A stretch of DNA of 64,000 nt from Haloarcula sp. CBA1127 (GTDB lineage Archaea; Halobacteriota; Halobacteria; Halobacteriales; Haloarculaceae): NCBI RefSeq assembly GCF_001485575.1, contig NZ_BCNB01000009.1, positions 1 to 64,000 of the forward strand, in the 5' to 3' direction. Of the stretch, positions 6,082 through 62,724 are shown piece by piece. How positions within the stretch are numbered: the stretch's first letter is position 1; each line of letters begins with the position of its first letter. Under the pieces are notes generated by a model that was not told where the DNA came from, searched no databases, and saw nothing but the letters and a program-made list of their open reading frames with translations. Both the position numbers and the translations under genes were made by a program.

Positions 6082-6598
6082 TCGGACTAGTCCTGTAAAT
6101 CGCCTCGGGATCAAGCTTTTCGGCGTCAGTATGCATGATTGCTCATAGCGTGGCCCATCTGATAGAGGCATGCCTGCCGGGGTAAAAGTGAAAGTGCCGG
6201 ACTATGCCGGCACCGAATGGGGATGGGGTGGGGGTGGGTACACAGACACCGAAAGGTGATTCAGGGTGGTGCCTGTGATTGGATTCGTCTCTTCTCGGCT
6301 ATCAACCTTCTGGCCTACGTGTTAATCTTCGAATGATTCGTCATCACTATCGACGGTGTTCACCAGCTAACCAACACAAACACCCATTCGACCTGTATAT
6401 TGGTTAAATTGCTACCACATCAGCGAGCAACAGCAGTGAAGACGTGTCTTCGATTTCTTCGGTCGAAATATCGTGTGTTTCGGGCCGATTGTCAGCACGT
6501 TTACCGAGGTTGAAACCGTCCACGGTGTAAATCACGCACGAACCGTCCTCAACGACCGCTACTACTCTTGCTCGGAGGCAAGAGTGAATAAGTGGGTT
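6082..6598. other. intergenic region with hairpin and palindrome
   Basis: No convincing gene lies here. There is a perfect 7-bp hairpin (GTGCCGG 6194-6200 and CCGGCAC 6207-6213), possibly a terminator for the 5557 gene although no T-run follows. Next is a purine-rich stretch of G repeats near 6220-6240, then the first copy of the TAACCAACA palindrome (6367-6407). Confidence 0.5.
6367..6407. promoter_or_regulatory. TAACCAACA interrupted palindrome, copy 1
   Basis: The left half CTAACCAA (6367-6374) and right half TTGGTTAA (6400-6407) form an interrupted palindrome of 41 bp in total. The half-site sequence and spacing match the copies at 17946, 26246, 26606 and 62682. This copy is the weakest, and the only one not directly upstream of a minus-strand start. 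It lies in the gap after the last gene of the minus block. Confidence 0.5.
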
Positions 6599-7800: not shown

Positions 7801-8073
7801 TCAGTTGTAGAACTTATTCTCCCAGTCGCACCGGGCTTGAAGCTCTCGACGCCCACGATTGGTGATTATGTAGCCATTCGTCCGTCCGTCTTTCTTCTCT
7901 TTCTCGACGAGACCTTTGTCGATGAGTGTATCCAGATTTGGATAAAGTCGGCCGTAATGAATCTTCTTCTCGTAATATTCTTCAATTTCGTCTTTGATTG
8001 CGACACCAGCGGGTTTGGATTTCCCAGCAACTACGAACAATAAGTCTCGTTGAAATGCTGTCAGGTCGTGCAT
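7801..8073 (-). CDS. PadR-family transcriptional regulator (90 aa)
   Basis: The sequence MHDLTAFQRDLLFVVAGKSKPAGVAIKDEI with IHYGRLYPNLDTLIDKGLVEKEKK and YIITNRGRREL is the PadR winged helix-turn-helix pattern. The recognition helix sits at LYPNLDTLIDKGLV and the wing at NGYIITNRG. The ATG at 8073 gives the usual N-terminus. It is the best candidate local repressor. A CAATAT/ATATTG inverted repeat overlaps its likely promoter (8085-8109), suggesting autoregulation. The C-terminal dimerisation helix is short, as in haloarchaeal minimal PadR proteins. Confidence 0.8.
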   Translation of the reverse strand: MHDLTAFQRDLLFVVAGKSKPAGVAIKDEIEEYYEKKIHYGRLYPNLDTLIDKGLVEKEKKDGRTNGYIITNRGRRELQARCDWENKFYN

Positions 8074-8126: not shown

Positions 8127-8567
8127 TCACTCCACGTCGTACAGGTCCTCAACCCCCCGTCGGTAGTAGTCCTGGCTGGAGTCTGGAACTGGATCAGCCT
8201 CCTCCAGATGCTTCGCGATGATGCTGGTAAACTGCTTGGGCGGCTTCCAACTGTCATCAATTTCGCGGGCCTCCAACTGCCTCATGACCGCATACTCACC
8301 GTCGGCGGTAACGTACAGAACGCGGATCCCCGGCTTCTCGCTCAGCGGGCCTCTGAGTAGCTTCCCCGTTCGTGTATTGACCAGCCACTCAAGCAAGAGC
8401 CCAGCCCGACACTGGATTGCGTACAGTTGCACCTCATCTTCTTCGGGAGATTCTGTGCGACCGTTGTCGGCCCACGACTGGGGCAGCGACCGATTCTCAG
8501 TTGCATCTTTCCAGCGCCACTTCAACTTTTTCGGCCCGGTAGTCCCTCGTCGGTATCCACTACTCAT
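8127..8567 (-). CDS. hypothetical protein (146 aa)
   Basis: I do not recognise this protein. It has a basic N-terminus (GYRRGTTGPKKLKWRWKDA), a middle beta-rich segment (VQLYAIQCRAGLLLEWLVNT) and a C-terminal helical part. No cysteine pairs or membrane helices are present. The ATG at 8567 is fixed by the hairpin leader at 8575-8594. It is part of the minus-strand block, upstream of the PadR gene. Confidence 0.6.
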   Translation of the reverse strand: MSSGYRRGTTGPKKLKWRWKDATENRSLPQSWADNGRTESPEEDEVQLYAIQCRAGLLLEWLVNTRTGKLLRGPLSEKPGIRVLYVTADGEYAVMRQLEAREIDDSWKPPKQFTSIIAKHLEEADPVPDSSQDYYRRGVEDLYDVE

Positions 8568-10469: not shown

Positions 10470-11156
10470 TTAGGCGTCTGGCAGTTTTCCATCCGGGCGG
10501 GGGACTCGCTGGGCGTCGATCTCGATCTCGACCCGGCGACGGTGCTTGCATCGCTCGGCCTCATCGGGACAACTGCACGTCTCTTCGAGCACGTCGACCT
10601 CGTACCGGCTATCCGACGCCGAATGGACCTCGTAGCGACCGGGCTTTGCAAGGAAGGAAACGTCGATATCTTCCTGCTTCGCTCGTTTCGTACGTGGTTC
10701 GTCCTCGGAGGTGACGGCCAAGGGGTCCTCGTTGGGGTCTGTGACACCGCCGTCGTCGAACCGGACCTGCATGACTCCACCGTCAGCGACCGCTTTCCGT
10801 GGTTCGCCGTCGACGTGTAGTCCAAACTGGTCGTCTAGGGCGTCGTCGTCCACCCACTGCGGGATGGGCCGCTCGCCGGTCGCGAAGGCGACTCGCTTCT
10901 GGTGCTTGCACTCCTCGCCGGGGTTGAACTGTTTCCACTTGCACTCACAACTCCCTGTTCGAGTGTCGACAAGGTACTCTGAGCCAGACCCGGAGTTGAC
11001 CAAGAAGAGGTCGTCGGCGTTTCGTGCCCGACCAATCGAGTCCAACACGGTCATCACTTCGGTCAGTGCCCGAACGGTCCGGTTGTTCGGGTCAGCCTTC
11101 TCCAGTTCGCTCTCGTTGATGCTGCTGGCGTCGCTACGGGATTCTGTAGTAGCCAT
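10470..11156 (-). CDS. protein with two SWIM-like zinc fingers (228 aa)
   Basis: Two CxC...CxH units are visible: CECKWKQFNPGEECKH (about residues 72-87) and CSCPDEAERCKHRRR (about residues 197-211). The linker is acidic. SWIM fingers in archaea are usually linked to DNA or protein binding, but no catalytic domain is present here. The start at 11156 (MATTESRSD) follows the GC-type hairpin leader. It is upstream of tfb in the same direction. Function is inferred only from the fingers. Confidence 0.7.
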   Translation of the reverse strand: MATTESRSDASSINESELEKADPNNRTVRALTEVMTVLDSIGRARNADDLFLVNSGSGSEYLVDTRTGSCECKWKQFNPGEECKHQKRVAFATGERPIPQWVDDDALDDQFGLHVDGEPRKAVADGGVMQVRFDDGGVTDPNEDPLAVTSEDEPRTKRAKQEDIDVSFLAKPGRYEVHSASDSRYEVDVLEETCSCPDEAERCKHRRRVEIEIDAQRVPRPDGKLPDA

Positions 11157-17945: not shown

Positions 17946-17986
17946 TTAACCAACAGAAGCGATGATACTAACTGGCTGTTGGTTAA
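17946..17986. promoter_or_regulatory. TAACCAACA interrupted palindrome, copy 2
   Basis: TTAACCAACAG (17946-17956) and CTGTTGGTTAA (17976-17986) are perfect 11-bp arms with a 19-bp AT-rich spacer. It is upstream of the 17901 gene and behind the end of orc1/cdc6. It is probably an operator overlapping the promoter. Confidence 0.65.
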
Positions 17987-18084: not shown

Positions 18085-19314
18085 TCACGGTGCTGTCTCT
18101 CTATAGATTTGCTTGATAATCTCCGGGGGTTTATTGAGCGTGTGCTCGTTAAATTGTCCTTTGCTCCCTTGGTGTTGGTTCCGTGACTCGGTGATTTCAA
18201 GAAATGACAGTTCCTCCAAAAGTTGTCTCACACGCTCATGGGTGACTGGATCGACAGCGTGCTCATTGCAGAGTTTTTTGTATGCATCTAATACCTGCGA
18301 GGTCCGGAACCACCCTTCATCAGAATTACTAATTGTAAGCGCTGCGAGTGCTCCGATAACATGCTGGGAATGGGCTGGCAAGCCCGTAATAAGGTCGCGA
18401 AGCCGTTCAGCTTCAGCCATCTCGCGTACTTTTGGAACATCTTCTTCTGAGATAGTATCATAACCGTTTCGTATGGCGTATTTGCCGAGTGAAAACAACA
18501 GTTCAATACCCTTTCGGGCGTCGCCATGTTCTTTCGCAGCGAGAGCTGCCACCCGGGGGATGACTCCCTCCTCAATCACCCCTTCGTGGAAGGCGTCTGA
18601 TCGGTTCCTAAGAATCTCCCGTAATTGGTTGGCATCGTATGGGTCAAACACGTACTCTCGATGGCCGAACGAACTTTTTGTCCGCTCGTTCATCTGATTC
18701 CGGTAGTCAATCTTGTTCGAGATTGCCACGATACTAATGGGTATATCTATTGAACCATTTTCTCGAGCCCGAGAAAGAATCATCAGTGGGGAATCATCGC
18801 GAAGTCTGTCGACTTCGTCGAGCGTAATGGCAACACCATCGTAGTGCTGGTTAAGGATCGACCATAGCCGCTCATAGTATTCATCAGTCGAAATACCGCG
18901 GGACGGGAATTTGACGCCGCTTTCAGGAGGGTTGATGCGACGGCCAATATTGCGCGGGACTCGGGCAGGACCGTCAGTTTGTGAACAGTTTATATAGGCA
19001 GTTCCAACACTGACACCACGACGGTCAGCCTCTGCTTCGACTCTGCCCATTACATGTTTAGCGACAAGCGACTTTCCTGTTCCCGTTTTTCCGAAGATCA
19101 GCACCGAACTGGCCGGTTCACCAACAACAAGAGCCCCAATCTCGTGAGCTACCTGTTCAATTTGTTCGTCACGGCCTATAATGCGGTCGGCGTCAGGGAC
19201 GTGATCCGTGTCGACGAGGTCTCGGTTCTTGAAAATCTCGTTCCGATGCTCCACGACAGGAGCGTCGAAAAGGGGGTCGCCCCCTTGGTCCCCTGCATCT
19301 GGCATATCTCGCAT
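18085..19314 (-). CDS. orc: Orc1/Cdc6-family replication initiator (409 aa)
   Basis: This is an AAA+ initiator that binds origin repeats and recruits the MCM helicase. Walker A is GKTGTGKS (about residues 75-82), Walker B is ITLDEVDRL (about 167-175), and the sensor region VAISNKIDYR follows. The C-terminal winged helix covers about residues 310-400 (VRQLLEELSFLEI). Length is normal for the family. Its start lies next to the iteron cluster at 19340-19895, the usual arrangement for a haloarchaeal plasmid origin. It has no hairpin leader, unlike its neighbours. Confidence 0.92.
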   Translation of the reverse strand: MRDMPDAGDQGGDPLFDAPVVEHRNEIFKNRDLVDTDHVPDADRIIGRDEQIEQVAHEIGALVVGEPASSVLIFGKTGTGKSLVAKHVMGRVEAEADRRGVSVGTAYINCSQTDGPARVPRNIGRRINPPESGVKFPSRGISTDEYYERLWSILNQHYDGVAITLDEVDRLRDDSPLMILSRARENGSIDIPISIVAISNKIDYRNQMNERTKSSFGHREYVFDPYDANQLREILRNRSDAFHEGVIEEGVIPRVAALAAKEHGDARKGIELLFSLGKYAIRNGYDTISEEDVPKVREMAEAERLRDLITGLPAHSQHVIGALAALTISNSDEGWFRTSQVLDAYKKLCNEHAVDPVTHERVRQLLEELSFLEITESRNQHQGSKGQFNEHTLNKPPEIIKQIYRETAP

Positions 19315-26245: not shown

Positions 26246-26287
26246 CTAACCAACACCGAGTGGAATGTGGGGTACTGTGTTGGTTAG
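26246..26287. promoter_or_regulatory. TAACCAACA interrupted palindrome, copy 3
   Basis: CTAACCAACAC (26246-26256) and GTGTTGGTTAG (26277-26287) are perfect 11-bp arms with a 20-bp spacer. It lies upstream of the 26169 gene. Confidence 0.65.
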
Positions 26288-26605: not shown

Positions 26606-26646
26606 CTAACCAACAGTCGAGAAGTATGGCGGTCGCTGTTGGTTAA
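26606..26646. promoter_or_regulatory. TAACCAACA interrupted palindrome, copy 4
   Basis: TAACCAACAG (26607-26616) and CTGTTGGTTA (26636-26645) are perfect arms with a 19-bp spacer. It is 43-83 bases upstream of the ATG at 26563. Confidence 0.65.
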
Positions 26647-29150: not shown

Positions 29151-30503
29151 CTACTCAGCCGAGAAAGCCTCAATGGCATATTCCTCAGCCAACTCCACGA
29201 CATCATAGACGTGAATCCCCGATTTGAACCATAGCACGCGGTCGTCCATCCCGTCGAAATCCGCAGACGAACAGTCTAATCGCTTAGACACAGCGACAAT
29301 GAGATTATCTCGGTTTGCCTCGCGTATCTTCGCCAACTTCTCAGCAAGGTACTCTGGTGTCCAGAAGCCAACAATCTCGAATATAACTCGCCGGCCGTCT
29401 GGATGTTCGATGGCGAAGTCTGGGAGCATAACCTCCGCACCTAAATCCAGCACGTCATCCTCTCGTATGAGTTCCCAATCCGTGTTCGCGCGCTCCCACT
29501 TCTTGGCAAGTGTCCGTTCCACATCAGAGTCGAAGTCGCTCTGCGCAGCGTAGTGTGAAGACAGGTCGTCAGTGTCATCAAGCGCAAATGAAAGCGTTTG
29601 AGTCGTCGATCCACCCCCATCATCCAGAATGTCGGCCTCCATCTCCCACCGATCACATAACGGCAGTGCTGGCAGAAAGTTCGCCATCCGTATCCCATAC
29701 TTCCGCGATTTCGAAAAGAGGGACGCCGCCCCATCTAGCGTAGCTTTGTATCCGTCTGCTGCATCGGTACTCCCCACGCGATTGCCGTTGCTGTCGATTG
29801 GATAGATACGGTGCATCAACCCGAACAACTTCACGTAACTGAATACCGTCGCAAACGAGTCCCAGACTCGCACCCGCATCTCGGTCGCATCGTAGAGGAC
29901 AGCCTGTGCTAACGCGAGATTATAGCGAGTGAGAAGCCAGTCAGGCGTAATTGTATCCGCTGCATATGATTCCTCACTATCACCCGTCAGTTGAGTCGTG
30001 GTTGAGGACTCCGCCGCATCTTGGCATTCATCGGAAGCACGGTGTCCAAACCGAACAAGTCGTTTGTGTTCCTCCAAGTCGGCGTACATTCCCTGGTGGC
30101 ACTCTTCGAGTGTGATACCCAGCACATCAGCAACGGAACTGTACACTTCTAACTTCTGCGTATCCTCACCGAGCGTGGGCTGGCGAACAATCGGATACGA
30201 CTCATTTGCCTTCTCGAACAATCGCTGACGAATCTCATGTGGCTCAACTGGAGCAACCGTCTCGAACTCACACTCATCTTTCAGCAGTTTCGCCAGTCCT
30301 TGGACGACTTTGTAGTCCGTATCTGCGATGGTGAGTTGGTCAATAGTGTCCTCCAGATCACCTTTCGGTTCACCGAGATGGGCCTCAAAAATCTGAATGA
30401 GTTCCTCGGCTGTCTCCCGATACTGCTGCTCGCTGGCGTCAATGAACAGCGGCGTGATAGTGTCCTCGTGTGTCCGTGAGCGTGCAAGATTAGCTGTCAG
30501 CAT
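29151..30503 (-). CDS. Bax1-like nuclease (DUF790), partner of XPB (450 aa)
   Basis: The C-terminal domain has the PD-(D/E)xK arrangement: LPDFAIEHPDGRRVIFEIVG followed by EYLAEKLAKIREA. The N-terminal and middle parts (about residues 20-260) match the DUF790/Bax1 layout, including LLTRYNLALAQAVLYDATEM. Bax1 forms a helicase-nuclease complex with archaeal XPB that opens and cuts DNA. The ATG at 30503 overlaps the XPB stop by 14 bases, so the two are coupled and nearly certainly form one complex. Confidence 0.75.
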   Translation of the reverse strand: MLTANLARSRTHEDTITPLFIDASEQQYRETAEELIQIFEAHLGEPKGDLEDTIDQLTIADTDYKVVQGLAKLLKDECEFETVAPVEPHEIRQRLFEKANESYPIVRQPTLGEDTQKLEVYSSVADVLGITLEECHQGMYADLEEHKRLVRFGHRASDECQDAAESSTTTQLTGDSEESYAADTITPDWLLTRYNLALAQAVLYDATEMRVRVWDSFATVFSYVKLFGLMHRIYPIDSNGNRVGSTDAADGYKATLDGAASLFSKSRKYGIRMANFLPALPLCDRWEMEADILDDGGGSTTQTLSFALDDTDDLSSHYAAQSDFDSDVERTLAKKWERANTDWELIREDDVLDLGAEVMLPDFAIEHPDGRRVIFEIVGFWTPEYLAEKLAKIREANRDNLIVAVSKRLDCSSADFDGMDDRVLWFKSGIHVYDVVELAEEYAIEAFSAE

Positions 30504-31899
30504 TCGCTGCCACCCCCTGTCGTCGCTGCTCAGAGACATATGTTTCCACCGTGTCTTCAGCAATAATCTCGTAGAGACGGGCGGGTTGCCTGTCGTCTGT
30601 CGGTCGGAGAATCCGACCTAGCCGTTGCGCATACTGCCGTTTTGAGGCACTTCCAGAGAGAATAATCCCGACATTTGCAGAGGGGACATCAATCCCTTCG
30701 TCCAGTACCTGTGACGTAGCCAACATCGAGTACTCACCCGTTCGAAACCGCTCCAATATCTCTGTACGTTCGTCAGTCTCAGTTTGATGGGTGATGCAGG
30801 GCACGACGAACTCTTGGGAGATCTCGTACGCGAACTCGTTATTGGCGGTGAAAATAATGGTTCGGTCGTTGTAGTGTCGCTTCAGCAGATTGTCGAGCGT
30901 ATCCAGTTTCTTTGCAGCAGTACGGGCGATGTTTTCCGCCCGTTGCTTGGCAATAAGCGCCCGTCGTCCCTGCGGGTCATACGACGTGCGTTTGAGGAAC
31001 TCCTGATATCCGTTCTCCTTCCAGAGCTCGAAATCGTGGCTATCCACGTAGTCACGGTATATCTGGTACTCCTCGTCGTACGTTGTCCGTTCCTCGTCTG
31101 TGAGTTCGACTTGGAGATGAATGGTCTCGTATTCGCTGAGATACTCTCCAGCAAGTTCATCAACCGCCTCGCGATAGACAACCGTTCCAAGCAAGTCCTC
31201 TAATTCTTCGTGTGCTCCATCGGCACGCTCGTACGTAGCTGTGAGTCCAAGTCGATACGGTGCAATCGTCATCTCAGGGATCTGCTGATATGTCGGCGCT
31301 GGTAGGTGGTGTACCTCGTCTACAACGAGAAGCCCGAACTGATCCCCATACTCGTTGATATAGCGGTAGGCAGAGTCGTAGGTCGTCACCGTGATGTCCG
31401 CTATATTATGGCTACCACCACCGAGAACGCCCACGCTGTCTGGAAGCTGGTCACCGAAAGCGTTGGTGAGAGTCGCGTGCCACTGGTTCATCAGGTCGAT
31501 GGTTGGCACAACCACGAGCGTACTCACGCCTGCGTCTGCAATGGCTTGGACAGCGAGGAACGTTTTCCCACTCCCTGTCGGAAGGATAACACTCCCCTGT
31601 CGGCCATTGTCCTGCCACGCCGAGAGAGCGTCTTGCTGGTACTCCCGTGGTTCGATAGCGACAGACGGTGTGAGATAGAAGTCTGAGTAGGCACGAGCGT
31701 CGTCCTCTATCTCATCAACAGTCGCTGTGGATTCTTCGAGGGTCGCTTGTCCATCGGACTCGGTTGCCCACTTTCGGATAGGACGATAGTGCTGTGCCTG
31801 CGCCCGATACTCGCCGACGCGATCATCCCATTCGGCATACGGCACAGCGTCAGGAGCGTCTTCAAGCAAAAGCGTGCCATCATCGAATGAGAGACGCAT
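30490..31899 (-). CDS. XPB-like SF2 DNA helicase (469 aa)
   Basis: Helicase motifs appear in order: Walker A LPTGSGKTFL (about residues 106-115), DEVHH (about 194), LTATYERADG (the archaeal XPB RED-like region) and the C-terminal motifs with LATSQVLDEGIDVPSANVGI and QRLGRILRPTDD. An N-terminal damage-recognition-like domain precedes them. Archaeal XPB unwinds DNA with Bax1 in repair. Here the pair lies beside a defence operon on a mobile element, so a role against foreign DNA is possible. It starts at 31899, MRLSFDDGTL. Confidence 0.85.
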   Translation of the reverse strand: MRLSFDDGTLLLEDAPDAVPYAEWDDRVGEYRAQAQHYRPIRKWATESDGQATLEESTATVDEIEDDARAYSDFYLTPSVAIEPREYQQDALSAWQDNGRQGSVILPTGSGKTFLAVQAIADAGVSTLVVVPTIDLMNQWHATLTNAFGDQLPDSVGVLGGGSHNIADITVTTYDSAYRYINEYGDQFGLLVVDEVHHLPAPTYQQIPEMTIAPYRLGLTATYERADGAHEELEDLLGTVVYREAVDELAGEYLSEYETIHLQVELTDEERTTYDEEYQIYRDYVDSHDFELWKENGYQEFLKRTSYDPQGRRALIAKQRAENIARTAAKKLDTLDNLLKRHYNDRTIIFTANNEFAYEISQEFVVPCITHQTETDERTEILERFRTGEYSMLATSQVLDEGIDVPSANVGIILSGSASKRQYAQRLGRILRPTDDRQPARLYEIIAEDTVETYVSEQRRQGVAANADS

Positions 31900-33815: not shown

Positions 33816-36800
33816 CTACGATGACGAATTTGTTGATTTGTTTCGGTTTTCGAGAAATCGATTACACCAAGATGGTAGATCATCCATCGGTCCACTCTCA
33901 GTAACGGTACCATCGTTGGTGATCCGAGTGAACACACCATCTCGTCCCCAGCCACACACCAGTGGTTTTAATCCTTGACCTGGTCGGGTTGCGATTTGTT
34001 GGTCAAACCGCACTGGTTCTTTACTCACGTCCTGTAGTACTGTGAGAAGTTGCCCGAGAAGTGGGTGCCCCGGCGCAAGATGCTGAACAGATGGGTATTC
34101 ATCAGCACACTCCGCCGAGAAAGTCACCGCTACGTCGTCAACAGCAGGCGCAATAGCCTGTGCAATCGTCTGTTCCCCATCCCCGACGGGAACCTCAATC
34201 AGTGCATCACCTACTGAGAGGCGATATGTACTGTCCGCAAAGTCAAAGTCCCCGTCATCGTACTCGAAATTAATCTCGTGAACCGGGGTGAATTTAATAC
34301 CGGCCTCGGAAAGCGCATCGTTATCGACTAACACTGACTGAAGACCCGGTGTCTCGAACGGTGGATCGTACTCGTATCCGTCTTCCCCGACCTCAACGAG
34401 GTCTGGGTGGCAGTAGGATTGCCACGCATCGAGTTTCGCTTCATCAATGACATCCTGTGCTACGAGATCGTCAACGTCCTCAAGAGACTCGCCAACATCA
34501 ACGCGGTCGTCCTGCTTCTGGTTTTCAATTTCCTCTGATAACTGTTTATCTGCTTTTTCAACAGTCTCTCGACTCTCATCAGAATCGGCGTTTAGCGTAG
34601 CGTCTCGAATCTGTTGGCTGACGCCCGAGAGAATGGGTTGCATTTCTCCCACGACGTTTTCGAAGAGGCCGATTCGGTCGTCAAGACGGTCGTAAATGTC
34701 TGTCTCGACAGTATCTTCATAACTGTAGTTGAGAATCGTGACCTCGTCATACCGTTGTCCGATACGGTCGATTCGGCCGATACGCTGTTCGACCCGCATC
34801 GGATTCCATGGAAGGTCGTAGTTGATGAGTGCGCCACATTCCTGTAAATTCAGGCCCTCGCTGGCTGAGTCAGTACAAACAAGAATATCGACCTGCCCAT
34901 CATCGTTAGCGAATTCTCGCTTGACACGCTCTTTACCGACAGTCGTCCAGCCCTCACTGTCAAGGTCATACATCTCGCCACCGCGGCCAGAATATGTCGC
35001 GACCGTCGCACCATGAATGGATGTCAGGCTGTTTCGAATGAAGTCCATCGTATCGGCGTACTGTGTGAAGATAATGACCCGATTGTGTCCCTCACGGTCC
35101 AGTTTTCCAAGGTCGCTGATGAGTTGACTGACCTTCGGATCTTCGTCGATATGCTTGAGGTCATTCACGAACGACTCCAGTTCCTCGATTTCCTGCTCAA
35201 GCAGATTGATTCCTTGGTCAGTGACACTCGGAACAATCTCGGCGAGGTCGGCGTCTTCGAGGTCACCACTGATTTCATCAATCGTATCGAGGTCATCCAG
35301 TTCGTACTCAGAGAGGGTTTCCAAGAGGGTCTGGCTGGAGTTACCTTGGGAGTCATTACGATTGGCAGCACGCTGTTTGCCCTTCAGCACGGTCCGCTGA
35401 GCGCGAAGCGTTTCGAGACGACTTTGCAGGCTCTGTGAAATCGCGTAGACACTGCTCGTAAGGCGCTGTCGGTAGGTCGTCATCACGAAGCCGATAGCCC
35501 TCGTCTCAGCCTCGTCGGACTGCTGAGCGAGCTTGTAGAACTTCCGAGTGTACTCGTCAATGCGGTCGTAGACATCTCGAGTTTCGTCTGTTAGTTCGAT
35601 CTTCCGCTGCTTCGGGTTTCGATCCGGGACTGTCTCATCCAGCAATCCGACTTTTTCGTACTTGCGCAAAGTGTCGCGCGTATTCCGATGAATGAGCGCA
35701 TCGACAGGCGTGGATTCTGCAAGGACGTCTCGGACGACTCGCCAACCAGCTTCTGAGAGATCGTCAAGGGCACTGAGTTGATCATTCCGCGAGTAAGTTA
35801 GCCACTCTTCCTCAGCCTTCCAGTCTGGGTAGAGAAGGTACTTGAGCTTCTCGTCCTCATTGGCTTCGAACGGGTCGACGTTGTACTCCCGAACTGCAGT
35901 TTCGAAACGCTCGACATACCCGTCGTACTGGTCGCCGTGGTCTGAAGCGAGATGGCACGCTTCGAGCACGCGCTGTTTGGCGATTCCGCGTGCGTGCTGC
36001 TCATCGGCGACATCAAGTTTCTCCGCGGCAGCGTCGAAGACCCTATCGGAGAGTGCTCGCTCATTTGGTAGCCGATCCTGATACCGCTGTTCGTCTAACG
36101 TGGCTTGTGCCGACCATGCTCCTCCTGATGACGCTGCATCGCTTTCGAATTGTTCTTTCAATGCCTGGTTGAGAGCCTGGCGGGTCTCAAAGAACTCGAC
36201 GAACCGGTCTTTCTTGTCCCAATCGCCGGGGAGGTCAAGCAATGTCATCAGGTCGTAGAGCTCGCCAGCGTGCAGCTGCATCGGCGTCGCCGTCAACAAG
36301 TAGTACGTCTGGGTGTGTTCACGAAGCCGCTCAAGGAGTGTATAGAACTTGCTACCGGAGCGGGCGTTGTGTGCTTCATCGATGATGACTGCGTCCCAGA
36401 CACCCTCTCGGCTGGATGTATCCCGCCCGCGTGCACTCGCTGGAACGTCTTCGCGAGTACGTACGTCGCCTTCGTCGCGCGGGGCAACCTGATTCCAACG
36501 GTCGTCAAGCCTGGCAGTATGCCACGACATGATGACGATCGATGGAGCGTCAGTTTGGTTGTCGGACTGCTGATCATAGAGGAATCGCCAAATCGGACTC
36601 GCGACCCACGCTTTCGAATGTTCGTCAGCATCAAGATCGAGGCTGCTAGCCGAGGGTGGAGCGTGTTCACGGCCGAACGCATCATGGAAGGCGTACTGGT
36701 TCCCGCTTCCCCGATCGAAACGGTAAGCGTTGATATTGAACTTCTCCCAAAGCTCCTCTTGCCACTGAATCGTCAGGCTTGCGGGAACAAGGAGGAGACC

Positions 36801-37751
36801 GGTTTCCAGATCATCTGTCAGCCCAAGCCGAGAGAGCGTCAGTCCAGCCTCGATTGTCTTCCCGAGCCCGACCTCGTCGCACAGGAGGAAACTATTCGGG
36901 TATGTGTTGACAAGTGTGTCTGAGACGACGCGCTGGTGGGGCCAGGGTGTGATCGTACTACCCTCTTCAGCGAGGGCCAATCCGCCAGGAGCGAGCGAGC
37001 CGTCTGCGATGATGTTCGCTTTGTCGCGCTCGGTTGGTGGCGCTTCGCCGCGTGCAATCTGGATAGCAGAATCTATCTCAGTATCCGAATCGGGAGCCTT
37101 CCAGTCGATAATCTCCTCTTCGATAGCCCTGGGAAGATTGTAAACTTCGACGTAAGGATGATTGTTGTCCCAGAGACGGTCGAACGTGTCGACATCGCCC
37201 TTGACGTATTCGCGCTGTCCATCACGCCACTCACGGTGGACCTTGAACCGCTCATAATTGCGCTCCCAGCCGCCTGCAGTTTCGTTGACGCTGCCCTCGA
37301 ACGACAGCAAGTTCTCCTGATCGTCGTGAAAGATGCCGACTTTCGGATGGAAAATACCCCAGTTTCCTTGCCGAGGCACAGCGACCTTGATTGTGAGTCG
37401 GTCTTCTCGAAGAAGTTGAGCGAGGAGTTGGAGTTGGGCGTCAAGCCGCTCATCGTCGAGTTCATCGAGACCCTCGCTGAGTTCGTCCGAGAGAGCTTCC
37501 AAAACGGGGCGGTCGGTCTCGTACAGTTCCGCACCGACGATAAGTCGCATCTCTCCATCGTTTTCTACGAGTGCATGGACGCCGCGGGCCGCAACGGCGA
37601 GGGCACTGCTCGAGAAGTAGCCTGCCACACGGTCGTACCGAACGCTTCGTTCGAGGGCAGGGACGTAGAATTCATCAACAAGATGAGACCCGCTTGTTGA
37701 GGGCTGGCTCTCGTAAATAGAGTCCCAAGAATATGTCTGAAGGTCAGCCAT
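33816..37751 (-). CDS. helA: PLD-SNF2 fusion helicase, HelA type (1311 aa)
   Basis: The N-terminal phospholipase-D-like nuclease domain has HPK (residues 135-137) and GSVNET (153-158). A long SNF2-type helicase follows: Walker A DEVGLGKT (about 292-299), DEAH (458-461), and the C-terminal lobe with IIFTQYADTMDF, LNLQECGALINYD and EQRIGRIDRIGQ. This is the architecture of the helicase found with DUF1156, DUF499 and DUF3780 in anti-phage gene sets, and it resembles DrmD/DrmC parts of DISARM. It is the last gene of the operon beginning at 45764. Confidence 0.85.
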   Translation of the reverse strand: MADLQTYSWDSIYESQPSTSGSHLVDEFYVPALERSVRYDRVAGYFSSSALAVAARGVHALVENDGEMRLIVGAELYETDRPVLEALSDELSEGLDELDDERLDAQLQLLAQLLREDRLTIKVAVPRQGNWGIFHPKVGIFHDDQENLLSFEGSVNETAGGWERNYERFKVHREWRDGQREYVKGDVDTFDRLWDNNHPYVEVYNLPRAIEEEIIDWKAPDSDTEIDSAIQIARGEAPPTERDKANIIADGSLAPGGLALAEEGSTITPWPHQRVVSDTLVNTYPNSFLLCDEVGLGKTIEAGLTLSRLGLTDDLETGLLLVPASLTIQWQEELWEKFNINAYRFDRGSGNQYAFHDAFGREHAPPSASSLDLDADEHSKAWVASPIWRFLYDQQSDNQTDAPSIVIMSWHTARLDDRWNQVAPRDEGDVRTREDVPASARGRDTSSREGVWDAVIIDEAHNARSGSKFYTLLERLREHTQTYYLLTATPMQLHAGELYDLMTLLDLPGDWDKKDRFVEFFETRQALNQALKEQFESDAASSGGAWSAQATLDEQRYQDRLPNERALSDRVFDAAAEKLDVADEQHARGIAKQRVLEACHLASDHGDQYDGYVERFETAVREYNVDPFEANEDEKLKYLLYPDWKAEEEWLTYSRNDQLSALDDLSEAGWRVVRDVLAESTPVDALIHRNTRDTLRKYEKVGLLDETVPDRNPKQRKIELTDETRDVYDRIDEYTRKFYKLAQQSDEAETRAIGFVMTTYRQRLTSSVYAISQSLQSRLETLRAQRTVLKGKQRAANRNDSQGNSSQTLLETLSEYELDDLDTIDEISGDLEDADLAEIVPSVTDQGINLLEQEIEELESFVNDLKHIDEDPKVSQLISDLGKLDREGHNRVIIFTQYADTMDFIRNSLTSIHGATVATYSGRGGEMYDLDSEGWTTVGKERVKREFANDDGQVDILVCTDSASEGLNLQECGALINYDLPWNPMRVEQRIGRIDRIGQRYDEVTILNYSYEDTVETDIYDRLDDRIGLFENVVGEMQPILSGVSQQIRDATLNADSDESRETVEKADKQLSEEIENQKQDDRVDVGESLEDVDDLVAQDVIDEAKLDAWQSYCHPDLVEVGEDGYEYDPPFETPGLQSVLVDNDALSEAGIKFTPVHEINFEYDDGDFDFADSTYRLSVGDALIEVPVGDGEQTIAQAIAPAVDDVAVTFSAECADEYPSVQHLAPGHPLLGQLLTVLQDVSKEPVRFDQQIATRPGQGLKPLVCGWGRDGVFTRITNDGTVTESGPMDDLPSWCNRFLENRNKSTNSSS

Positions 37752-37804
37752 CAGTGAGCTTACTTGATTATCTCATTCTGAGGCTACTTAATCACTCCAG
37801 TCGG

Positions 37805-38755
37805 TCAGCTGTCGTCCATATCTGGAACAAGGGTTAGATCGTCCAAATCTGCGAGAACATCGGCGACGAGTCGGTCGGCGAGGTTCAGCCCCAATCCTAC
37901 CGCTATCTGGACTGCTTCGACGTAGGTCCCGAACGTGTCCAAGGTAACCGTTCTCCCTCGTGCTGTCATCGAGTGGGAGAGTTCATTCCGCGCATCCCGC
38001 AGTGTGTCGTCCAGAACGTCCAGTTCGATATTCTCTGGAGCGAGGCCCTCATCTCGAAGCCATCCTATAACCTCATCAAGCCGGGTGTCATCCAGTTCTG
38101 AGTCGACTCCTGTCGCGAGTTCTTTCACTGTGACTGCCCCCACCTCTTCGACCATCGCTGCGCTGGTCAGAACAGCAACCAGTAGCGGCGGGTGGGCGAT
38201 GTAACTGAACATCTCTGACCCGTACTCTTGGAGGTAACGAGATTCGTCATCCTGGAGATGGGCCGCTAGCTCATCTGCTTGCCAGAGACTTTCACTAATC
38301 CACTGGATCCACATCGATGTCTGAAGCGAGAACTCAATTCGGTCCCGTAGCTCTCGTGAATGTCGAAGCCAGCGACGTGACAAGAGTTCGTAGTCGGTTT
38401 CATTCCCGAACGTCGCCCGTTTTCGGCACGCATCTATCGACGTGGTGAACTCCTCAAAGGTCGACTCAAAGTTTCTGAGAAGATCCGCGACCTGCCCGAT
38501 TCCCCAGCTGAGCCGAACAGGTAGCGCATCCAAGACTTGCCCATCAGATGAACGACGGCGTTCGAGGTCGGTCTCGTACACCGACACGGCTGAATTATGC
38601 ACCTGAAGGCAATACTGGAACCGCTGCCAACAGAGTTCGATAATCGCGGCATGCCACTGACCGTCAGGAAGAGGAACACGAAGCTTCGTCGGCGACCCAT
38701 CACCCTGCTCCCCGAGAGTGAGGTGAACCGCAGTGAGGTCGCCGAACGCTCGCAT
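37805..38755 (-). CDS. unknown protein of the defence operon (316 aa)
   Basis: The protein is all-helical looking, with segments YCLQVHNSAVSVYETDLERR, DACRKRATFGNETDYELLSR and LDEVIGWLRDEGLAPENIEL. I do not recognise a known domain. It sits between the DUF1156 methyltransferase (5-base gap) and the helicase (53-base gap) on the same strand. It may be an accessory or target-recognition subunit. It is the least understood member of the operon. Confidence 0.6.
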   Translation of the reverse strand: MRAFGDLTAVHLTLGEQGDGSPTKLRVPLPDGQWHAAIIELCWQRFQYCLQVHNSAVSVYETDLERRRSSDGQVLDALPVRLSWGIGQVADLLRNFESTFEEFTTSIDACRKRATFGNETDYELLSRRWLRHSRELRDRIEFSLQTSMWIQWISESLWQADELAAHLQDDESRYLQEYGSEMFSYIAHPPLLVAVLTSAAMVEEVGAVTVKELATGVDSELDDTRLDEVIGWLRDEGLAPENIELDVLDDTLRDARNELSHSMTARGRTVTLDTFGTYVEAVQIAVGLGLNLADRLVADVLADLDDLTLVPDMDDS

Positions 38756-38760
38756 TCGGC

Positions 38761-41604
38761 TTAGTGCTCCCCGAGCGTGCTCTGCGTCGTCTCGTTGCCG
38801 TCTTCTGCGAAGACGTTGGGGTTGAAGTCAAGGTCCAACGCGTCGCTCGTCCGGCCGACGGCAAGGTCCCGAGCAAATTCCCAGTCCTCGTGGTTGTGCG
38901 GAAGCACCTGGAGCAAGGCTTTCAGCGTCGCCTTGAACTGGCTGTCCGAGTCGAAGTTGCGTTCTCGAAGCCACTCGATGGTCTCGGTCTCGCCACGCTT
39001 GGCGTAGACGTGCATCGCGGCGTGGACGGCGTCCAGCGAACGCGGGAACGAGAGGTCGTCAGGGTCAACCGGCAGACGACTGGACCGGTCTTCGGGCTTT
39101 TCGTTGATGTTCTGCACGCGGCCGTCGTGTCCGCGGAGGCTGATGTCGCCGCGGCTCTTGCGCCAAGTCTTCGTCGACCGCTTGATTTCGTCGATGTCGA
39201 CGCCGATTCCGAGGCCGAGTTGGCGACCGTCGTCATAAGAGAATGTCTCGGCTTCGTGGACGAGCCAACAGAGGATATACCACTCTGTAACATCGTCTAG
39301 AATGTCGACATCCATCCCTTCCAGATATTCGTCGACGAGGATTTGGGTCACAGCCTCCCGTGCGGTTTCAAGGGCTTTCCGCGGAGGGACCTCCTCGTCC
39401 TGATCGTCGACAACAGGATAGGCGTCGGCGAAGACCCGAAGCGTCGGGCCGAACGCAGAGATGATGACGTCGGTCTTAGTCAGAGAGATACCAGATTCAA
39501 GGAGGTCACGAGCCGCTTCTTTCGCGGCATTTCGTGTGTCCGCCTCGACGTCGCTCCAGAGTGTAGGGATTGCGTTCTCAGTATCGCGTTCTTCGTGAGG
39601 CTTACGGCCTGTTAGTAAGAGAGTTGAGTCTGCAGATGCACTACTCCTCATGTTTGCCCTTTGTGGCATCTCGCTCGTAATTGGATGAGTAGAAGTGATG
39701 ACGAAACCTGAGTTGATGAGCGACTTAGCCAAAGTATCCCATGCATCGGTCTCTTTGTGAGTGAACATAACTGTCATTACGCCACCCGATGACAGCTGGT
39801 TGTAAATATTTGAGAATATCTCGCTCATCTTATTCTCATAGAATTCATTGGCAAGTTCCTTCTTTGAATTGGAACTACTGGAGACGCTATCAAATCTCTC
39901 CGGGTTAGCTACCGCCTCGTTCTCTTTATCGGTTAAACCATCTGAGAACAGTTCTGGGTGTACGTCACCAAGGTACTTCTTTAGCCATCCATAGAAGACA
40001 TCAGCGAGTTCAGAATACATGATGCTGCTATAGTAAGGGGGGTCAACGACCGCTGCTTGGATTTCGCGGCCGGTCGTCAAGTCGGCGGCATCTTCGTTGG
40101 TAATAGTCGCCGGCTGGCTACCCTCTGGAAGATACGAGACGAGTTCCTCATATGAATCACGGACTTTCTCGTATAGAGAGTTGAAATCCATCGTACCAAG
40201 CAACGGATTATTATCGCAAAATACCCTAGTGAATACTAGAATATTCCCCTTGAATACTGGGTTTGGGTAGCCTTTACTTGTGTCCCAGTCTGCAAGTCGC
40301 GCATTTCGGTCAATAAATTTGCTACACGCAAGAGAAAGAACTGAAAGAATCGCCTCTGCCTCATTTTCTTCATGTTCTCGTAATATCTCGGGCTTATAGT
40401 GGTTAAACGCCTGAAGGTATTCGTAGTGCGAAATTAATTGCCGAGGTGAAAATAGGTCTCTAAGTTCTGTAACGCCATAGGGGACTGCTCGGTCAGCGTA
40501 CCCCTCGAATCGCTCAACAGAGAGGATTGTGGAGAGTTCATAATCATTCTCTACGCGCTCTTTCGCTAACTCAAGTGCTTCTCGATCCGTCTGGTTCGGT
40601 GCTCGGAAGCCAGATTTACCATTGCTATCAATGTATCTAACGCAGTAAATCTCGTACTCAAAGTCGTTATTTTTGAACTTCTCTCTGATTGTATCCCCCT
40701 CCGTAACGACGTTACAGTGAGGGCAATCAGCTTCACCACCCCTATCAACAAACCCATCGTTAGGTTCGAAATCATCGAGATCGGGATGATTAAGATCGGT
40801 ATAGCAGCGATACGAAACAGTCCGGTCATCCTCTATTTTTGGCTTGACAACTGCGCTCCCAGATTTTATTGTCCATTTTGGAATCAGAGGAATGTCACCG
40901 CCACACTGTGGACACTCTACACGATATGACGTGACATATATGTCTGGGCTCTGGCCAGACTCTGATTCTGGATAGAGTTCCTCGAGATTATTGCGCGCTC
41001 GGTCATGAATTTTGTCGGCCCAATAATCAAGATCAGAACCAAGAGAACCGGCGGTAGGTGCATACTGAAGAAGGACCTTAAGAATCAGTGACGGTACCGG
41101 ATTTAGCTCGTTTGCGCTTGTTGGGAGTTCATAACGAATGGATTCGAATGGAATCACTCCACCGCCAGCTGTCGGATCAAGGATAGCTGGCAGTTCGCCA
41201 TCCCATTGATTACGAAGGAGTGAGTGGAGTTCTTTTGTCTCAGACGGGCTAGGAGACTGCGTGAAAGGACGGGGATACCCATAGTGTTCCCCAAGCGTTC
41301 CATTCCGCTCTGATTCAGTTGCCTTCTTCCTCTCAACATACTCAGATAGTCCGCTATCCAGTTCTTTTGGCCCGATCTGCATCCATTGCAGTAATTCGTC
41401 TGAGGAAACATCTTGAGGTAGAACCGATGCAAGAATCGCCAGTCTTGAAGCAGGAGTAGGTCGCCGCGCGAACCACGGATGAAGATAGCGGTGTGGCGGC
41501 ATATGCTTTGGATTCCCTTCCTTCAAGTTCTCAATACCAACTGCCTTCAGCGGAAGCTGTCCTTCGATAGCGAGCGGTTTCAGATCGTCGTTGTGTTCAC
41601 TCAT
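38761..41604 (-). CDS. DUF1156 DNA adenine methyltransferase with zinc ribbon (947 aa)
   Basis: The SAM-binding motif I appears as ILDPTAGGGVIPFESI (about residues 141-156). The catalytic motif DPPYYSS is near residue 526. A zinc ribbon CPQCGGDIPL...CPHC lies near residues 235-300. The opening HMPPHRYLHPWFARRPTPAS is the DUF1156 signature. Proteins of this COG1743 type modify adenine in host DNA in defence sets, so the helicase attacks unmodified DNA. Its ATG overlaps the upstream stop (ATGA). Confidence 0.85.
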   Translation of the reverse strand: MSEHNDDLKPLAIEGQLPLKAVGIENLKEGNPKHMPPHRYLHPWFARRPTPASRLAILASVLPQDVSSDELLQWMQIGPKELDSGLSEYVERKKATESERNGTLGEHYGYPRPFTQSPSPSETKELHSLLRNQWDGELPAILDPTAGGGVIPFESIRYELPTSANELNPVPSLILKVLLQYAPTAGSLGSDLDYWADKIHDRARNNLEELYPESESGQSPDIYVTSYRVECPQCGGDIPLIPKWTIKSGSAVVKPKIEDDRTVSYRCYTDLNHPDLDDFEPNDGFVDRGGEADCPHCNVVTEGDTIREKFKNNDFEYEIYCVRYIDSNGKSGFRAPNQTDREALELAKERVENDYELSTILSVERFEGYADRAVPYGVTELRDLFSPRQLISHYEYLQAFNHYKPEILREHEENEAEAILSVLSLACSKFIDRNARLADWDTSKGYPNPVFKGNILVFTRVFCDNNPLLGTMDFNSLYEKVRDSYEELVSYLPEGSQPATITNEDAADLTTGREIQAAVVDPPYYSSIMYSELADVFYGWLKKYLGDVHPELFSDGLTDKENEAVANPERFDSVSSSSNSKKELANEFYENKMSEIFSNIYNQLSSGGVMTVMFTHKETDAWDTLAKSLINSGFVITSTHPITSEMPQRANMRSSASADSTLLLTGRKPHEERDTENAIPTLWSDVEADTRNAAKEAARDLLESGISLTKTDVIISAFGPTLRVFADAYPVVDDQDEEVPPRKALETAREAVTQILVDEYLEGMDVDILDDVTEWYILCWLVHEAETFSYDDGRQLGLGIGVDIDEIKRSTKTWRKSRGDISLRGHDGRVQNINEKPEDRSSRLPVDPDDLSFPRSLDAVHAAMHVYAKRGETETIEWLRERNFDSDSQFKATLKALLQVLPHNHEDWEFARDLAVGRTSDALDLDFNPNVFAEDGNETTQSTLGEH

Positions 41605-42221
41605 AGGTGGTCAGTCAGCAAGGTCCGCAGTGCTTTTTCGCCGTTCGGGCTGGACGGGGCGCGACACTTTGCATGCCAGTAGTAACACTCCTCGTCGCCC
41701 ATGCTGGCGATTCCGCGACAGAGGGCACGCATCCTGTCGACACGCTGGAGCGGTTTGATGCCGCGGAACGCGAGTGCCAGACGCACGCCAACAGTTTCTG
41801 GGAGGAAAAGGTCACCAGTGCCGCTGGAGGTGACGATTGTGGCATCAAGTTCCGCGCCGTCGACGGTTTCCTTGATGAGCGGAGAGAGGGCGCGGAAGCG
41901 ACCACCGTCGAGACGGGCAATTTTCACGGCCGCCCATCCGTCCCAGTCCCAGCCCGTCGCTTCCTTGGCCGACGAATCATCGAAGACCTCCTCGAAGGAC
42001 TCGACGGTGAGCGAACGCCCGTGGCGTTCGAGCCGATTGCGACGGCTGGCCGCTTGTTCTTCGGGGAGCAGTTCGTACAGCGTGACCTCGCCGCCGTTCG
42101 ACCCTTCGCGGCGCGTCATCGCGAACGTCGGCCGTCCGCCGTAGACACTACTCCCGAAGGAGGACGCTGGCGCGTCCTCGGTCGCCGTGCTGGCTTGCGT
42201 TGAGTCGAGTCCCGTCGTCAT
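41601..42221 (-). CDS. DUF3780-like defence protein (206 aa)
   Basis: The region GWDWDGWAAVKIARLDGGRF, then VRLALAFRGIKPLQRVDRMR and MGDEECYYWHAKC, fits the DUF3780 protein that accompanies DUF1156 and DUF499 in anti-phage gene sets. No catalytic motif is seen; it may be a structural or regulatory subunit. It overlaps both neighbours by 4 bases (ATGA), so expression is coupled. Confidence 0.65.
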   Translation of the reverse strand: MTTGLDSTQASTATEDAPASSFGSSVYGGRPTFAMTRREGSNGGEVTLYELLPEEQAASRRNRLERHGRSLTVESFEEVFDDSSAKEATGWDWDGWAAVKIARLDGGRFRALSPLIKETVDGAELDATIVTSSGTGDLFLPETVGVRLALAFRGIKPLQRVDRMRALCRGIASMGDEECYYWHAKCRAPSSPNGEKALRTLLTDHL

Positions 42222-45200
42222 TGTGTTGCCTCAGAGGGAACTTCGGTCGGTCCTCTGGCTTGAACTTTCACGTCGATATTGGTCTGGCCGAGGCCCGCCT
42301 GTAGTTCTGCGAGCACGTCGTCCTCGGCGTCGGTTATCGGTTCGGGCTCGTCGAGGTCTACACGGAACTTCAGCGTGACGTTGAACGACTCGCCGAACGG
42401 ATCGGGCTGGTTCGTCACGCGCGAGAAGTCGTCGAGACTTCCCTGATAGCTCGCGCTGTAGCTCGATCCCGTCGACGTCTTCACGTCGTAACTCATCCGA
42501 ACCGAGACCGCGTCCGACCGGTCAGTGAAGGCATCCCGCTGAGCGATGAACGAGCCCTTCGAGAGCCGATCCTCGCCCACCACTTCGACCGTGACCTGCG
42601 AGACGCCTGGTGAGCCACCTGAGGCCGCTTTCGAGAGCGCATGGGTTCGCACCTCGTTGAACGCCCGCGACGCCGCCATCTGGCTTGTCGCCGTGTCCCA
42701 GCCCGAGGGCTGAGCGCAGTCGGGGCAGATTCCCTGAGCGTTCAGTTCGCTCTCGTCGTATTTCTCGCCGCAGCTCTGACAACGAGTCTTTTCTGGGGTC
42801 TTCTTATGTTTCTCACAATACGCTGGGCCGTCATCTGAGGCTTCGACCTTCGTCGTACAGCCGTCCTCGGCGCACTCGACTTCGGACGCTTCTGGCGGCC
42901 GAATCGAGTCGTGGTGTACGTCGAGGAGGGCTTCGATACCCGTGTAGATGACGTAGTCGTTCCCGATCTTCACGTCGGTATCCTGAATCGATGTGCGAAC
43001 ATCGGGCGAGTCAGCGAACGGTGTGCGCTTCCGCCAGTTCTCGGGGTGATCGTCGGCGTCGCCGTCCCAGTACGCGATCTGAGTCTCGGCGTCCCAGTAG
43101 GTGTAGCCGCTCTCGTCGACCATCTTCGCGACGGTCTTGCGAAGCGGCTTCGTGCTCAGAAGGTACGGGAGCCCTGGCTTCTTGCCGAACTGCTCGACGA
43201 GTTGCTGCGTCGTCATCGAGTCCTGGGTCCGCTGCCAAAGTTTCTGCTTGAAGAACGCGACACCCTTCGCGTCGGCATCAGCCCGAATCAGGCGATCGTC
43301 GAGGGTTTCCTCGACTGCATTGACGAGCGAGGTTCCGCCGTTCGCCTCGGTCGCGTTGATCGTAATGTGTGTGAGTCCATCGCGGTCGACGTAGTAGAGA
43401 TGACGATAGACCCCACGAACGAGTTCACCGAGCAGACCGTACTTTTCCTTCCGCCGCTGTTTGAGGTCCTCGATCTGATCCCCAGAAAGGTCTGCCGTCT
43501 GCTGAGAGCCATCGAGGAGCGCTTCGATGGCTTCCAAGTGCCGGGCTTCGTCGATGGCACTTCTCACACGCTCGTCGTCTGGAGCGAGGAACAGGACGTA
43601 GTTCTTGTAGACCCGACTCTGGACGTCGCCGCCCTGCTTCGAGGCAGACTTCTGGTACAGCGACTGGACCTTTTCAGGGACGGACTCCGGGTTCGACTCG
43701 TCTTCGAGTAGTTGCTTGGTGACCGGCGCCGTATCCATGTGCATCACGGCAAGCTGGGGCGTCGATGCCTTGTCCGGGAGGTCGGCCGGCGACTCGGGGT
43801 AAGGAACTGGCTCGAACGCACCAGTCCCGGTTTCACTCTCCAGTCGGGCCTCGAATCGTGAGCGCGCCTGCGCGTCTGGTGTATTGTCGACCCGCTGGTC
43901 GATGATCCTGATGAGGTTCGGATCAGATTTGAATCGAACCCGCTCCTCGTCGTAGAGGTAGTAGCACGCGACGCTCATGTCAGATCCCGCCAGCGCATCA
44001 AGGGCCGAGTCGTAGTTATCAAAACGAACGTCCGGGTGACCCAGCGTCTCGTTCATTTCAGCCCGGGTAAGCCCGGTTGCTTGTTCTCCGTAGGCTAGGC
44101 TATGCCATAGAACGGCGGTAGTCAGATGTGAGCCGAGTTCAGGGATGCCTTTTTCTGTCCACTTGCGATCCTCAAGTTGGGCATGGGCCGTCCCGTCATC
44201 GTTGTAGATATCTGCCGAGACAGCCGAACTGAGATCAACAAACTCGAACAACGACTCATGGAGAGTTGAACTGATACTCCCGCTTGGAGCATCGTCAGCT
44301 GGCGTGAGGTCGTACAACCGTACCCAATGGCGCTCGTAATGATCTGGGCGATTATTCCAGCGGTAGTAGACAGCGCGGGCAAGAAGCTTCAGTGCTCCAC
44401 GAGTTCGTTGGAACTTCGGAATCGTGTCGATTTTCTCAGTAAGCGTATCGATAACCGTCGGATGGAACGGATACTCTCGTTCGAGCCGGTCAACGTAACT
44501 CGCGTCCGTCGCTTCTTGGGGGAACTGCCGCTCACTGTTGGAGTACAACTGGAAGTACGACTGGGACACCTCGGCTGCGGCTTCATCGTCGATGTCCTCG
44601 AAGAGACGATGCTGAAGGACCTTCCCAACTTCACTCTCGTCGGTTGGCGTGACCGTTTTGTGCTGGCGACGCCCAATCTGATTGAGTTCGTCGATTAGCT
44701 TACGCACGTCCTCGGCTTCCTCCTCAAAGGCTGTGTCCGCAATCGAGTAGACGATAGTAACATCATCGGACTCAGACGCGGTCTCCAAAAGCGATAGAAC
44801 AAAGCTGAGTGTCTGGCTGGCCAGCGTTGCACCGCCGACCTCAACGGCAGACGCGCTTTCTAAATAGGCAGCAATCTCATCGATGAGGACTAGCGCCGGG
44901 CCGTCGCCGATGTCGAAGAGATCCTTGAGCTTGTTTTGTCCAGGTGCGGTTCGGTTCTGGTCGTACTCCTTCAACTCTTCGTAGCCTTCAGCGCCGTATA
45001 GCTGGTAGGCAATCTCTCCCCACATCGTCTTGCTATTCGGGGCATTGGGGTCGCGTCGATCACTGCGTGCATTCCGGGCGTCGACATGGCCTCCGACAAA
45101 CACAGCTGAGTCGACGGAGAGGCCTTCTTCGACGGCTTCATCATAAGCTTCTGCACTGCTCTCGTCGTCTGGAAGAAGGTGGTCACTGAGGTTGCTGATG

Positions 45201-45544
45201 TCGTCAGCGTGTTCTGCTAAATGGTAAGACGCGATGAGGTCGTGGGTTTTCCCGCCGCCGAAGCGCGTGTCGAGGCAAAGGATGCTGCTTGTATAATCTG
45301 TCTCTTGATTTGTTCCACTTGCAAGGAATCGTCCTGTGAGATTACTCAATAACGTCTTCAAACCCTCAGTGGGGTAGGTCATCTCAAAGAACAGAGAGGC
45401 CTCGCGGTAATTCGGTGCAGCTTTGTTGGGATCGTGGGCAACAGTAGCTAAACTCGCAGCGAACTGGTCCTCTTGTAGTGAGCCATCAAGGACGTCGTTA
45501 CGCGGCTGGCAGGTTTCAAATAACGGCGGAAACTCACTGCTCAT
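42218..45544 (-). CDS. DUF499 AAA+ ATPase (1108 aa)
   Basis: Walker A is LDTRFGGGKTHD (GGGKT at about 96-100) and Walker B is ALVLIDEIAAYL (about 212-223). Late in the chain there are two zinc motifs, CAEDGCTTK...YCEKH and CQSCGEKYD...CPDC (about residues 875-940). It matches COG1483/DUF499 ATPases linked to defence methyltransferases. ATP hydrolysis may drive complex assembly or movement on DNA. The ATG at 45544 overlaps the upstream regulator by 11 bases. Confidence 0.85.
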   Translation of the reverse strand: MSSEFPPLFETCQPRNDVLDGSLQEDQFAASLATVAHDPNKAAPNYREASLFFEMTYPTEGLKTLLSNLTGRFLASGTNQETDYTSSILCLDTRFGGGKTHDLIASYHLAEHADDISNLSDHLLPDDESSAEAYDEAVEEGLSVDSAVFVGGHVDARNARSDRRDPNAPNSKTMWGEIAYQLYGAEGYEELKEYDQNRTAPGQNKLKDLFDIGDGPALVLIDEIAAYLESASAVEVGGATLASQTLSFVLSLLETASESDDVTIVYSIADTAFEEEAEDVRKLIDELNQIGRRQHKTVTPTDESEVGKVLQHRLFEDIDDEAAAEVSQSYFQLYSNSERQFPQEATDASYVDRLEREYPFHPTVIDTLTEKIDTIPKFQRTRGALKLLARAVYYRWNNRPDHYERHWVRLYDLTPADDAPSGSISSTLHESLFEFVDLSSAVSADIYNDDGTAHAQLEDRKWTEKGIPELGSHLTTAVLWHSLAYGEQATGLTRAEMNETLGHPDVRFDNYDSALDALAGSDMSVACYYLYDEERVRFKSDPNLIRIIDQRVDNTPDAQARSRFEARLESETGTGAFEPVPYPESPADLPDKASTPQLAVMHMDTAPVTKQLLEDESNPESVPEKVQSLYQKSASKQGGDVQSRVYKNYVLFLAPDDERVRSAIDEARHLEAIEALLDGSQQTADLSGDQIEDLKQRRKEKYGLLGELVRGVYRHLYYVDRDGLTHITINATEANGGTSLVNAVEETLDDRLIRADADAKGVAFFKQKLWQRTQDSMTTQQLVEQFGKKPGLPYLLSTKPLRKTVAKMVDESGYTYWDAETQIAYWDGDADDHPENWRKRTPFADSPDVRTSIQDTDVKIGNDYVIYTGIEALLDVHHDSIRPPEASEVECAEDGCTTKVEASDDGPAYCEKHKKTPEKTRCQSCGEKYDESELNAQGICPDCAQPSGWDTATSQMAASRAFNEVRTHALSKAASGGSPGVSQVTVEVVGEDRLSKGSFIAQRDAFTDRSDAVSVRMSYDVKTSTGSSYSASYQGSLDDFSRVTNQPDPFGESFNVTLKFRVDLDEPEPITDAEDDVLAELQAGLGQTNIDVKVQARGPTEVPSEATQ

Positions 45545-62681: not shown

Positions 62682-62724
62682 TTAACCAACATACCCGCGA
62701 TCTCACCCGCCCAATGTTGGTTAA
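62682..62724. promoter_or_regulatory. TAACCAACA interrupted palindrome, copy 5
   Basis: TTAACCAACAT (62682-62692) and ATGTTGGTTAA (62714-62724) are perfect 11-bp arms with a 21-bp spacer, just upstream of the hairpin leader at 62611. Confidence 0.65.

Follow-up and report, generated by a model that had tools for sequence, protein, structure and literature searches.

A split palindrome of haloarchaeal plasmids and viruses and a small protein family as its candidate binder

KorB of plasmid RK2, an autoregulated, plasmid-encoded member of the ParB family, acts at conserved palindromes (OB) which are scattered over the plasmid, some of them far from promoters. The parS sites of ParB and the matS sites of MatP are also invariant palindromes, present in several copies per replicon and independent of promoters. 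The sites described here share these features. As in the KorB/OB system, a perfectly conserved, scattered palindrome is accompanied by a plasmid-encoded, putatively autoregulated DNA-binding protein (here named c0), but c0 is not ParB-like, and its sites shun promoters and are common to co-resident plasmids. Unlike parS and matS, they have half-sites with two helical turns of spacer between them and are accompanied by an unrelated protein family, and in this genome they are restricted to extrachromosomal DNA.

The analyzed stretch of 64,000 nucleotides (the window) is part of contig C9 (116842 bases) of a genome of 4.36 Mb in nine contigs, and the best plasmid matches of its replicon are Haloarcula plasmids. 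Direct reading of the window sequence confirmed the five interrupted palindromes reported in the initial annotation (Table 1). Their common form is TAACCAACA-N21..23-TGTTGGTTA, and an arm mismatch occurs only in the 6367 copy. With the 9-bp half-site as anchor, the spacers are 21, 21, 22, 21 and 23 bp. The weakest copy, at 6367–6407, likewise has a 21-bp spacer, with one mismatch in its right arm (TATTGGTTA). The half-site starts are separated by 30–32 bp, i.e. by about three helical turns, as had been proposed. The window contains 19 half-site matches (at most one mismatch) versus 6.2 expected, a number reached in none of 100 shuffles.

Table 1. Positions of the five palindromes and of two genes considered in connection with them
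Feature	Position in window	Form	Context
Site 1	6367..6407	spacer 21, one arm mismatch (TATTGGTTA), outer bases C/T	convergent gap
Site 2	17946..17986	spacer 21, T..T	99 bp past orc1 stop, 45 bp before start at 17901
Site 3	26246..26287	spacer 22, C..C	13 bp past 87-aa gene stop, 77 bp before start at 26169
Site 4	26606..26646	spacer 21, C/T	38 bp past 290-aa gene stop, 43 bp before 87-aa gene start
Site 5	62682..62724	spacer 23, T..T	100 bp before start of 50-aa zinc-ribbon-like ORF
Orc1/Cdc6 homologue	18085..19305	-	orc1 is the usual c0 neighbour on other replicons
PadR-like protein, RosR-homologous	7801..8073	-	candidate binder of the initial annotation, not favoured

Four of the five sites do lie upstream of a minus-strand start, at a distance of 40–100 bp. 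Three of these four (17946, 26246 and 26606) also follow, by 13–99 bp, the stop of the same-strand gene before them; proximity to a start is therefore not in itself evidence for an operator. The fifth site (6367) is located between convergent genes, without a confident start nearby. The relatives of site 2 on contigs C3 and C5 have an 11-bp spacer, and the layout of site 3 recurs in the annotated plasmid pHH126.

The window contains several other modules. Genes for type IV secretion (VirB4/TraD-like; 53869–60940) are conserved on four co-resident plasmids (C3, C4, C5 and C9), which suggests that these plasmids may undergo conjugation-like transfer, although MOB-suite scores related plasmids as non-mobilizable. 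An XPB-like helicase gene adjoins that of a DUF790 protein (29151–31899), and the genes for a large helicase, DUF1156 and DUF499 proteins (33816–45544), common to other haloarchaeal plasmids, form a possible defence module.

The motif recurs well above chance beyond the window: 26 paired sites were found genome-wide, versus none for a reversed-pattern control. All are carried by five plasmids (C3, C4, C5, C8 and C9), and they correspond to 25 distinct sites, one of them being counted twice through the redundant ends of C9. Contig starts are repeated near the contig ends (C9 at 102316, C3 at 94937, C5 at 104315), an assembly redundancy of circular plasmids. The largest contig (C6), taken as the chromosome, has eight lone half-sites and no pairs. 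When one mismatch per arm and spacers of 0–60 bp were allowed, no pairs were detected in replicons C1 (272 kb), C2 (386 kb) and C7 (31 kb), and all pairs but one on the eight plasmid contigs had a spacer of 20–23 or 11 bp. Permitting three mismatches at spacer 22 yielded only one additional plasmid site, with two mismatches. Relaxation of the search thus adds almost nothing, and the site in this genome is usually either perfect or absent.

A broader survey revealed the site in 198 of 292 sampled genomes of the class (61 of 77 genera), including 30 of the 32 sampled from the window's genus, while the reversed control gave one match in each of two genomes. These site sets were gathered with exact patterns, and degenerate sites are therefore undercounted. 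Most GTDB contigs with the motif are haloarchaeal; low-G+C or non-archaeal matches in the collection scans were discarded as chance. The site is also present on viral contigs, including that of Halobacterium phage ChaoS9, where a 29-kb stretch holds three perfect sites, two of them at gene ends. Among the sampled salt-loving archaea it is found mostly on plasmids and viruses, with a few sites on large contigs in other genomes (e.g. contig C1 of genome G290). None of the literature matches listed for the half-site string concerned haloarchaea.

Among 270 distinct sites, 252 have spacers of 20–23 bp and 11 have spacers of 9–13 bp. The two spacer clusters are separated by about one helical turn, and the AT-rich centre is accompanied by AT-rich positions near ±9, which points to double-stranded DNA bound on one helix face. 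An RNA or single-strand hairpin was rejected, because the bases inside the arms are complementary no more than by chance and the spacing tracks the DNA helix. Xer recombination sites (dif or pdif) consist of two arms of about 11 bp around a centre of 6–8 bp, an arrangement unlike the spacers of 20–23 or 9–13 bp seen in nearly all of the 270 sites. The palindromes behave, in agreement with the initial annotation, as sequence-specific protein sites whose half-sites share a helix face and which recur over the replicon. Immediately outside TAACC, 201 sites have T at both ends and 32 have C at both ends; approx. 13 are mixed.

Gene calling around the sites relied on a simple codon-based finder and was followed by clustering; being heuristic, it may have overlooked short genes. 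Outstanding among the clustered neighbours was c0, a family of approx. 107 aa whose genes occur on haloarchaeal plasmids and in some viruses, and for which Pfam, PHROGs and NCBIfam provided no convincing family. A search that used only protein similarity retrieved 30 c0 genes, 29 of which have a perfect site 14–17 bp ahead of the ATG. Of the 292 genomes, 155 encode a close c0 (E < 1e-30), and every one of them has sites; conversely, no close c0 is present in the 94 genomes devoid of sites (Fisher 3e-43). This co-occurrence is in part inherent, as every c0 comes with a site, and the p-values are inflated by genome relatedness. Seventeen genomes have sites without any c0 match. In the genome under study, an intact c0 is found only on plasmid C4 (positions 30980–31303), i.e. 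it is missing from the window and from four of the five site-bearing plasmids; any action of c0 on C9 would therefore have to occur in trans.

In 22 of 25 loci, an orc1/cdc6 gene is no more than three genes away from c0, against 131 of 1285 background genes, which makes c0 part of the replication module on many plasmids. No comparable link to parA was seen, this gene being as close in only 4 of 16 loci. A double winged-helix protein of approx. 307 aa (HVO_2833_C domain) is transcribed divergently from c0; at L050, L157 and similar loci the distance is fixed at 84 bp (10 of 10 cases). The phage gene ChaoS9_240 encodes a c0 homologue, annotated only as uncharacterized, and like plasmid c0 genes it has a perfect upstream site (2 bp away); its record names the homologues phiH1_250 and Nmag_4297, and the gene adjoins that of the tyrosine recombinase int2. 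Such a site is not described in the accessible part of the ChaoS9 literature. The AlphaFold2 model of c0 comprises confident N-terminal helices and a moderately confident C-terminal three-stranded antiparallel β-sheet. Fold searches with this model gave no significant match to solved structures, the helical N-terminal part being barely covered; integrase arm-binding domains (3rmp, 3jtz) appeared as weak listings for the sheet (E above 2, best Z 3.4 in a second look).

The C-terminal domain of c0 covaries with the outermost base of the half-site, NDNRYYYW going with T..T and D(D/G)REYYYL with C..C. At own-promoter sites, T..T accompanies the canonical domain (KEINDNRYYYWQWR) in all 60 cases, and C..C accompanies the variant domain (TKTID-REYYYLQWR) in 10 of 13, counts which were read from the same alignment that suggested the covariation. 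The genome-wide number of C..C sites constitutes a separate check: at least three are present in all 12 variant-c0 genomes (four of which lie outside the window's genus) versus 3 of the 280 others (Fisher 7e-19). C..C sites also occur in genomes G000, G029 and G051, none of which has an intact variant c0; in the first of these, the genome studied here, a broken remnant of a variant (C-type) c0 is located near position 9774 of C4, and 14 C..C sites are nevertheless kept. As the co-occurrence of c0 and sites is partly built in, this covariation is the stronger argument for c0 as the binder. Inference from these sequence data strongly supports c0 as the probable direct binder of the sites.

The position of the sites relative to genes differs between c0 and all other genes. 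The sites of c0 itself have a median distance of 15 bp from the start. In contrast, when the 193 non-c0 sites are compared with random positions in the same gaps, they prove to be farther from starts (rank 0.68, p 2e-11) and nearer to stops (rank 0.347, p 8.5e-10). They cluster at most 40 bp from stops, as exemplified by the site at 29317 of locus L411 (19 bp past the xseB stop), and in 23 of 275 site-stop pairs the arm itself supplies, with its TAA, the stop codon of the gene. Judged by the share of intergenic DNA at the same loci, convergent gaps contain 53 sites (approx. 38 expected) and divergent gaps 23 (approx. 40 expected). The stop-hugging, start-avoiding tendency was repeated with the public annotation of five records.

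The best explanation, and in our view a probable one by a modest degree, is that each palindrome serves as a high-specificity docking site for the small DNA-binding protein c0. Two c0 subunits, held by half-sites three (rarely two) helical turns apart, would occupy the same DNA face and touch each other. The site overlapping the c0 promoter makes autorepression the natural reading there, i.e. c0 would repress its own gene. The remaining sites, also on replicons which do not encode c0, would not be promoter switches but would mark promoter-free DNA at gene ends of extrachromosomal replicons. Their most likely role is in replicon maintenance, where c0 would compact, bridge or segregate this DNA. 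We infer direct binding, subunit contact, autorepression and the maintenance role from the features computed here, namely site conservation, plasmid restriction in this genome, c0 linkage, covariation and promoter avoidance. The sites look more like anchoring points of extrachromosomal DNA than operators of a regulon. A classical centromere setting plasmid identity is disfavoured, because five co-resident plasmids have the same sites. Partition of the ParB/parS type was rejected: the ParB domain (PF02195) occurs in this genome on C8 only, and c0 is seldom near parA.

The same placement would be seen if bound c0 acted as a roadblock, the sites being protein-dependent insulators or terminators at gene ends and between modules. 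This is unlikely, even with the clustering near stops, the overlap of the arm with stop codons and the enrichment in convergent gaps in its favour, since a tightly bound protein that just keeps out of transcribed units would be placed equally, and the sites are few, a handful per 100 kb.

Still less probable is a version of the one-regulon reading of the initial annotation, in which the sites would be operators of a plasmid-wide transcriptional regulon and c0 (or PadR) a global repressor or activator. It would account for the site 14–17 bp before the c0 start and for the fixed site-to-start distances of some families (84 bp in 10 of 10 cases for the double winged-helix protein, 64–82 bp for DUF6610), but away from c0 the sites keep clear of starts, lie close to stops and are scarce in divergent gaps. 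Enrichment at starts and in divergent gaps was found only at c0's own gene, the 193 other sites showing the opposite; the c0 site alone resembles an operator.

We give little credence to the view that the sites are crossover points at which gene cassettes are exchanged and that c0 is an accessory factor in this process. Homology of C9 with C5 indeed breaks off within site 2, other synteny blocks begin 13–23 bp from sites, and c0 lies beside int2 in ChaoS9. However, gene adjacency was kept at least as often at site gaps (0.26; 19 gaps) as at length-matched site-free gaps (0.22), and the spacer is unlike that of Xer sites. A recombination hot spot or attC-like cassette site was rejected in the same comparison, as the single striking cases are not accompanied by excess breakage.

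Equally improbable is binding by another plasmid protein, c0 being a conserved target only. The PadR-like protein, a 146-aa protein (8127–8567) and a SWIM protein (10470–11156) represent families present on all five site-bearing plasmids, the latter two being confined to these five among the plasmid contigs of the genome, whereas c0 is found on one of the five. A near-universal self-site and a domain changing with the outer base were found for c0, which is the sole family put through these tests. The PadR-like protein was favoured at first for its presence on every site-bearing plasmid. It is a homologue (E 4e-22) of RosR of Halobacterium salinarum, itself PadR-like, which binds a 20-bp palindrome with the motif TCGnCGACGAGnTCGnCGAC (PMC4287449); the sites in the window are also palindromic, but differ from this motif in sequence and spacing, and a PadR/RosR-like binder was dropped because c0 explains more. 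Orc1, likewise suggested, does not fit either: the haloarchaeal origin boxes (ORB) contain a G-string and form inverted pairs flanking an AT-rich element beside orc1 (PMC3528665), whereas the arms in the window lack a G-string and the sites are single and dispersed, with no ORB layout. The binder is probably none of the candidates named earlier, two of which (the PadR-like protein and Orc1) were compared with the sites here.

The docking of c0 on promoter-free DNA may, as a tentative generalization, reflect an undescribed class-wide archaeal system, in which c0 and an invariant 18-bp split palindrome would organize or segregate extrachromosomal DNA, similar in function but unrelated to parS or matS. 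The upkeep and organization of the many large plasmids of haloarchaea are poorly understood, and a concrete site and a protein family can now be named. The alternation between T..T and C..C provides a built-in specificity switch that is open to experiment. The occurrence of the same site on plasmids and viruses suggests that mobile elements within one cell may share, or compete for, one protein. The case is also a warning that nearness to gene starts is insufficient for calling an operator.
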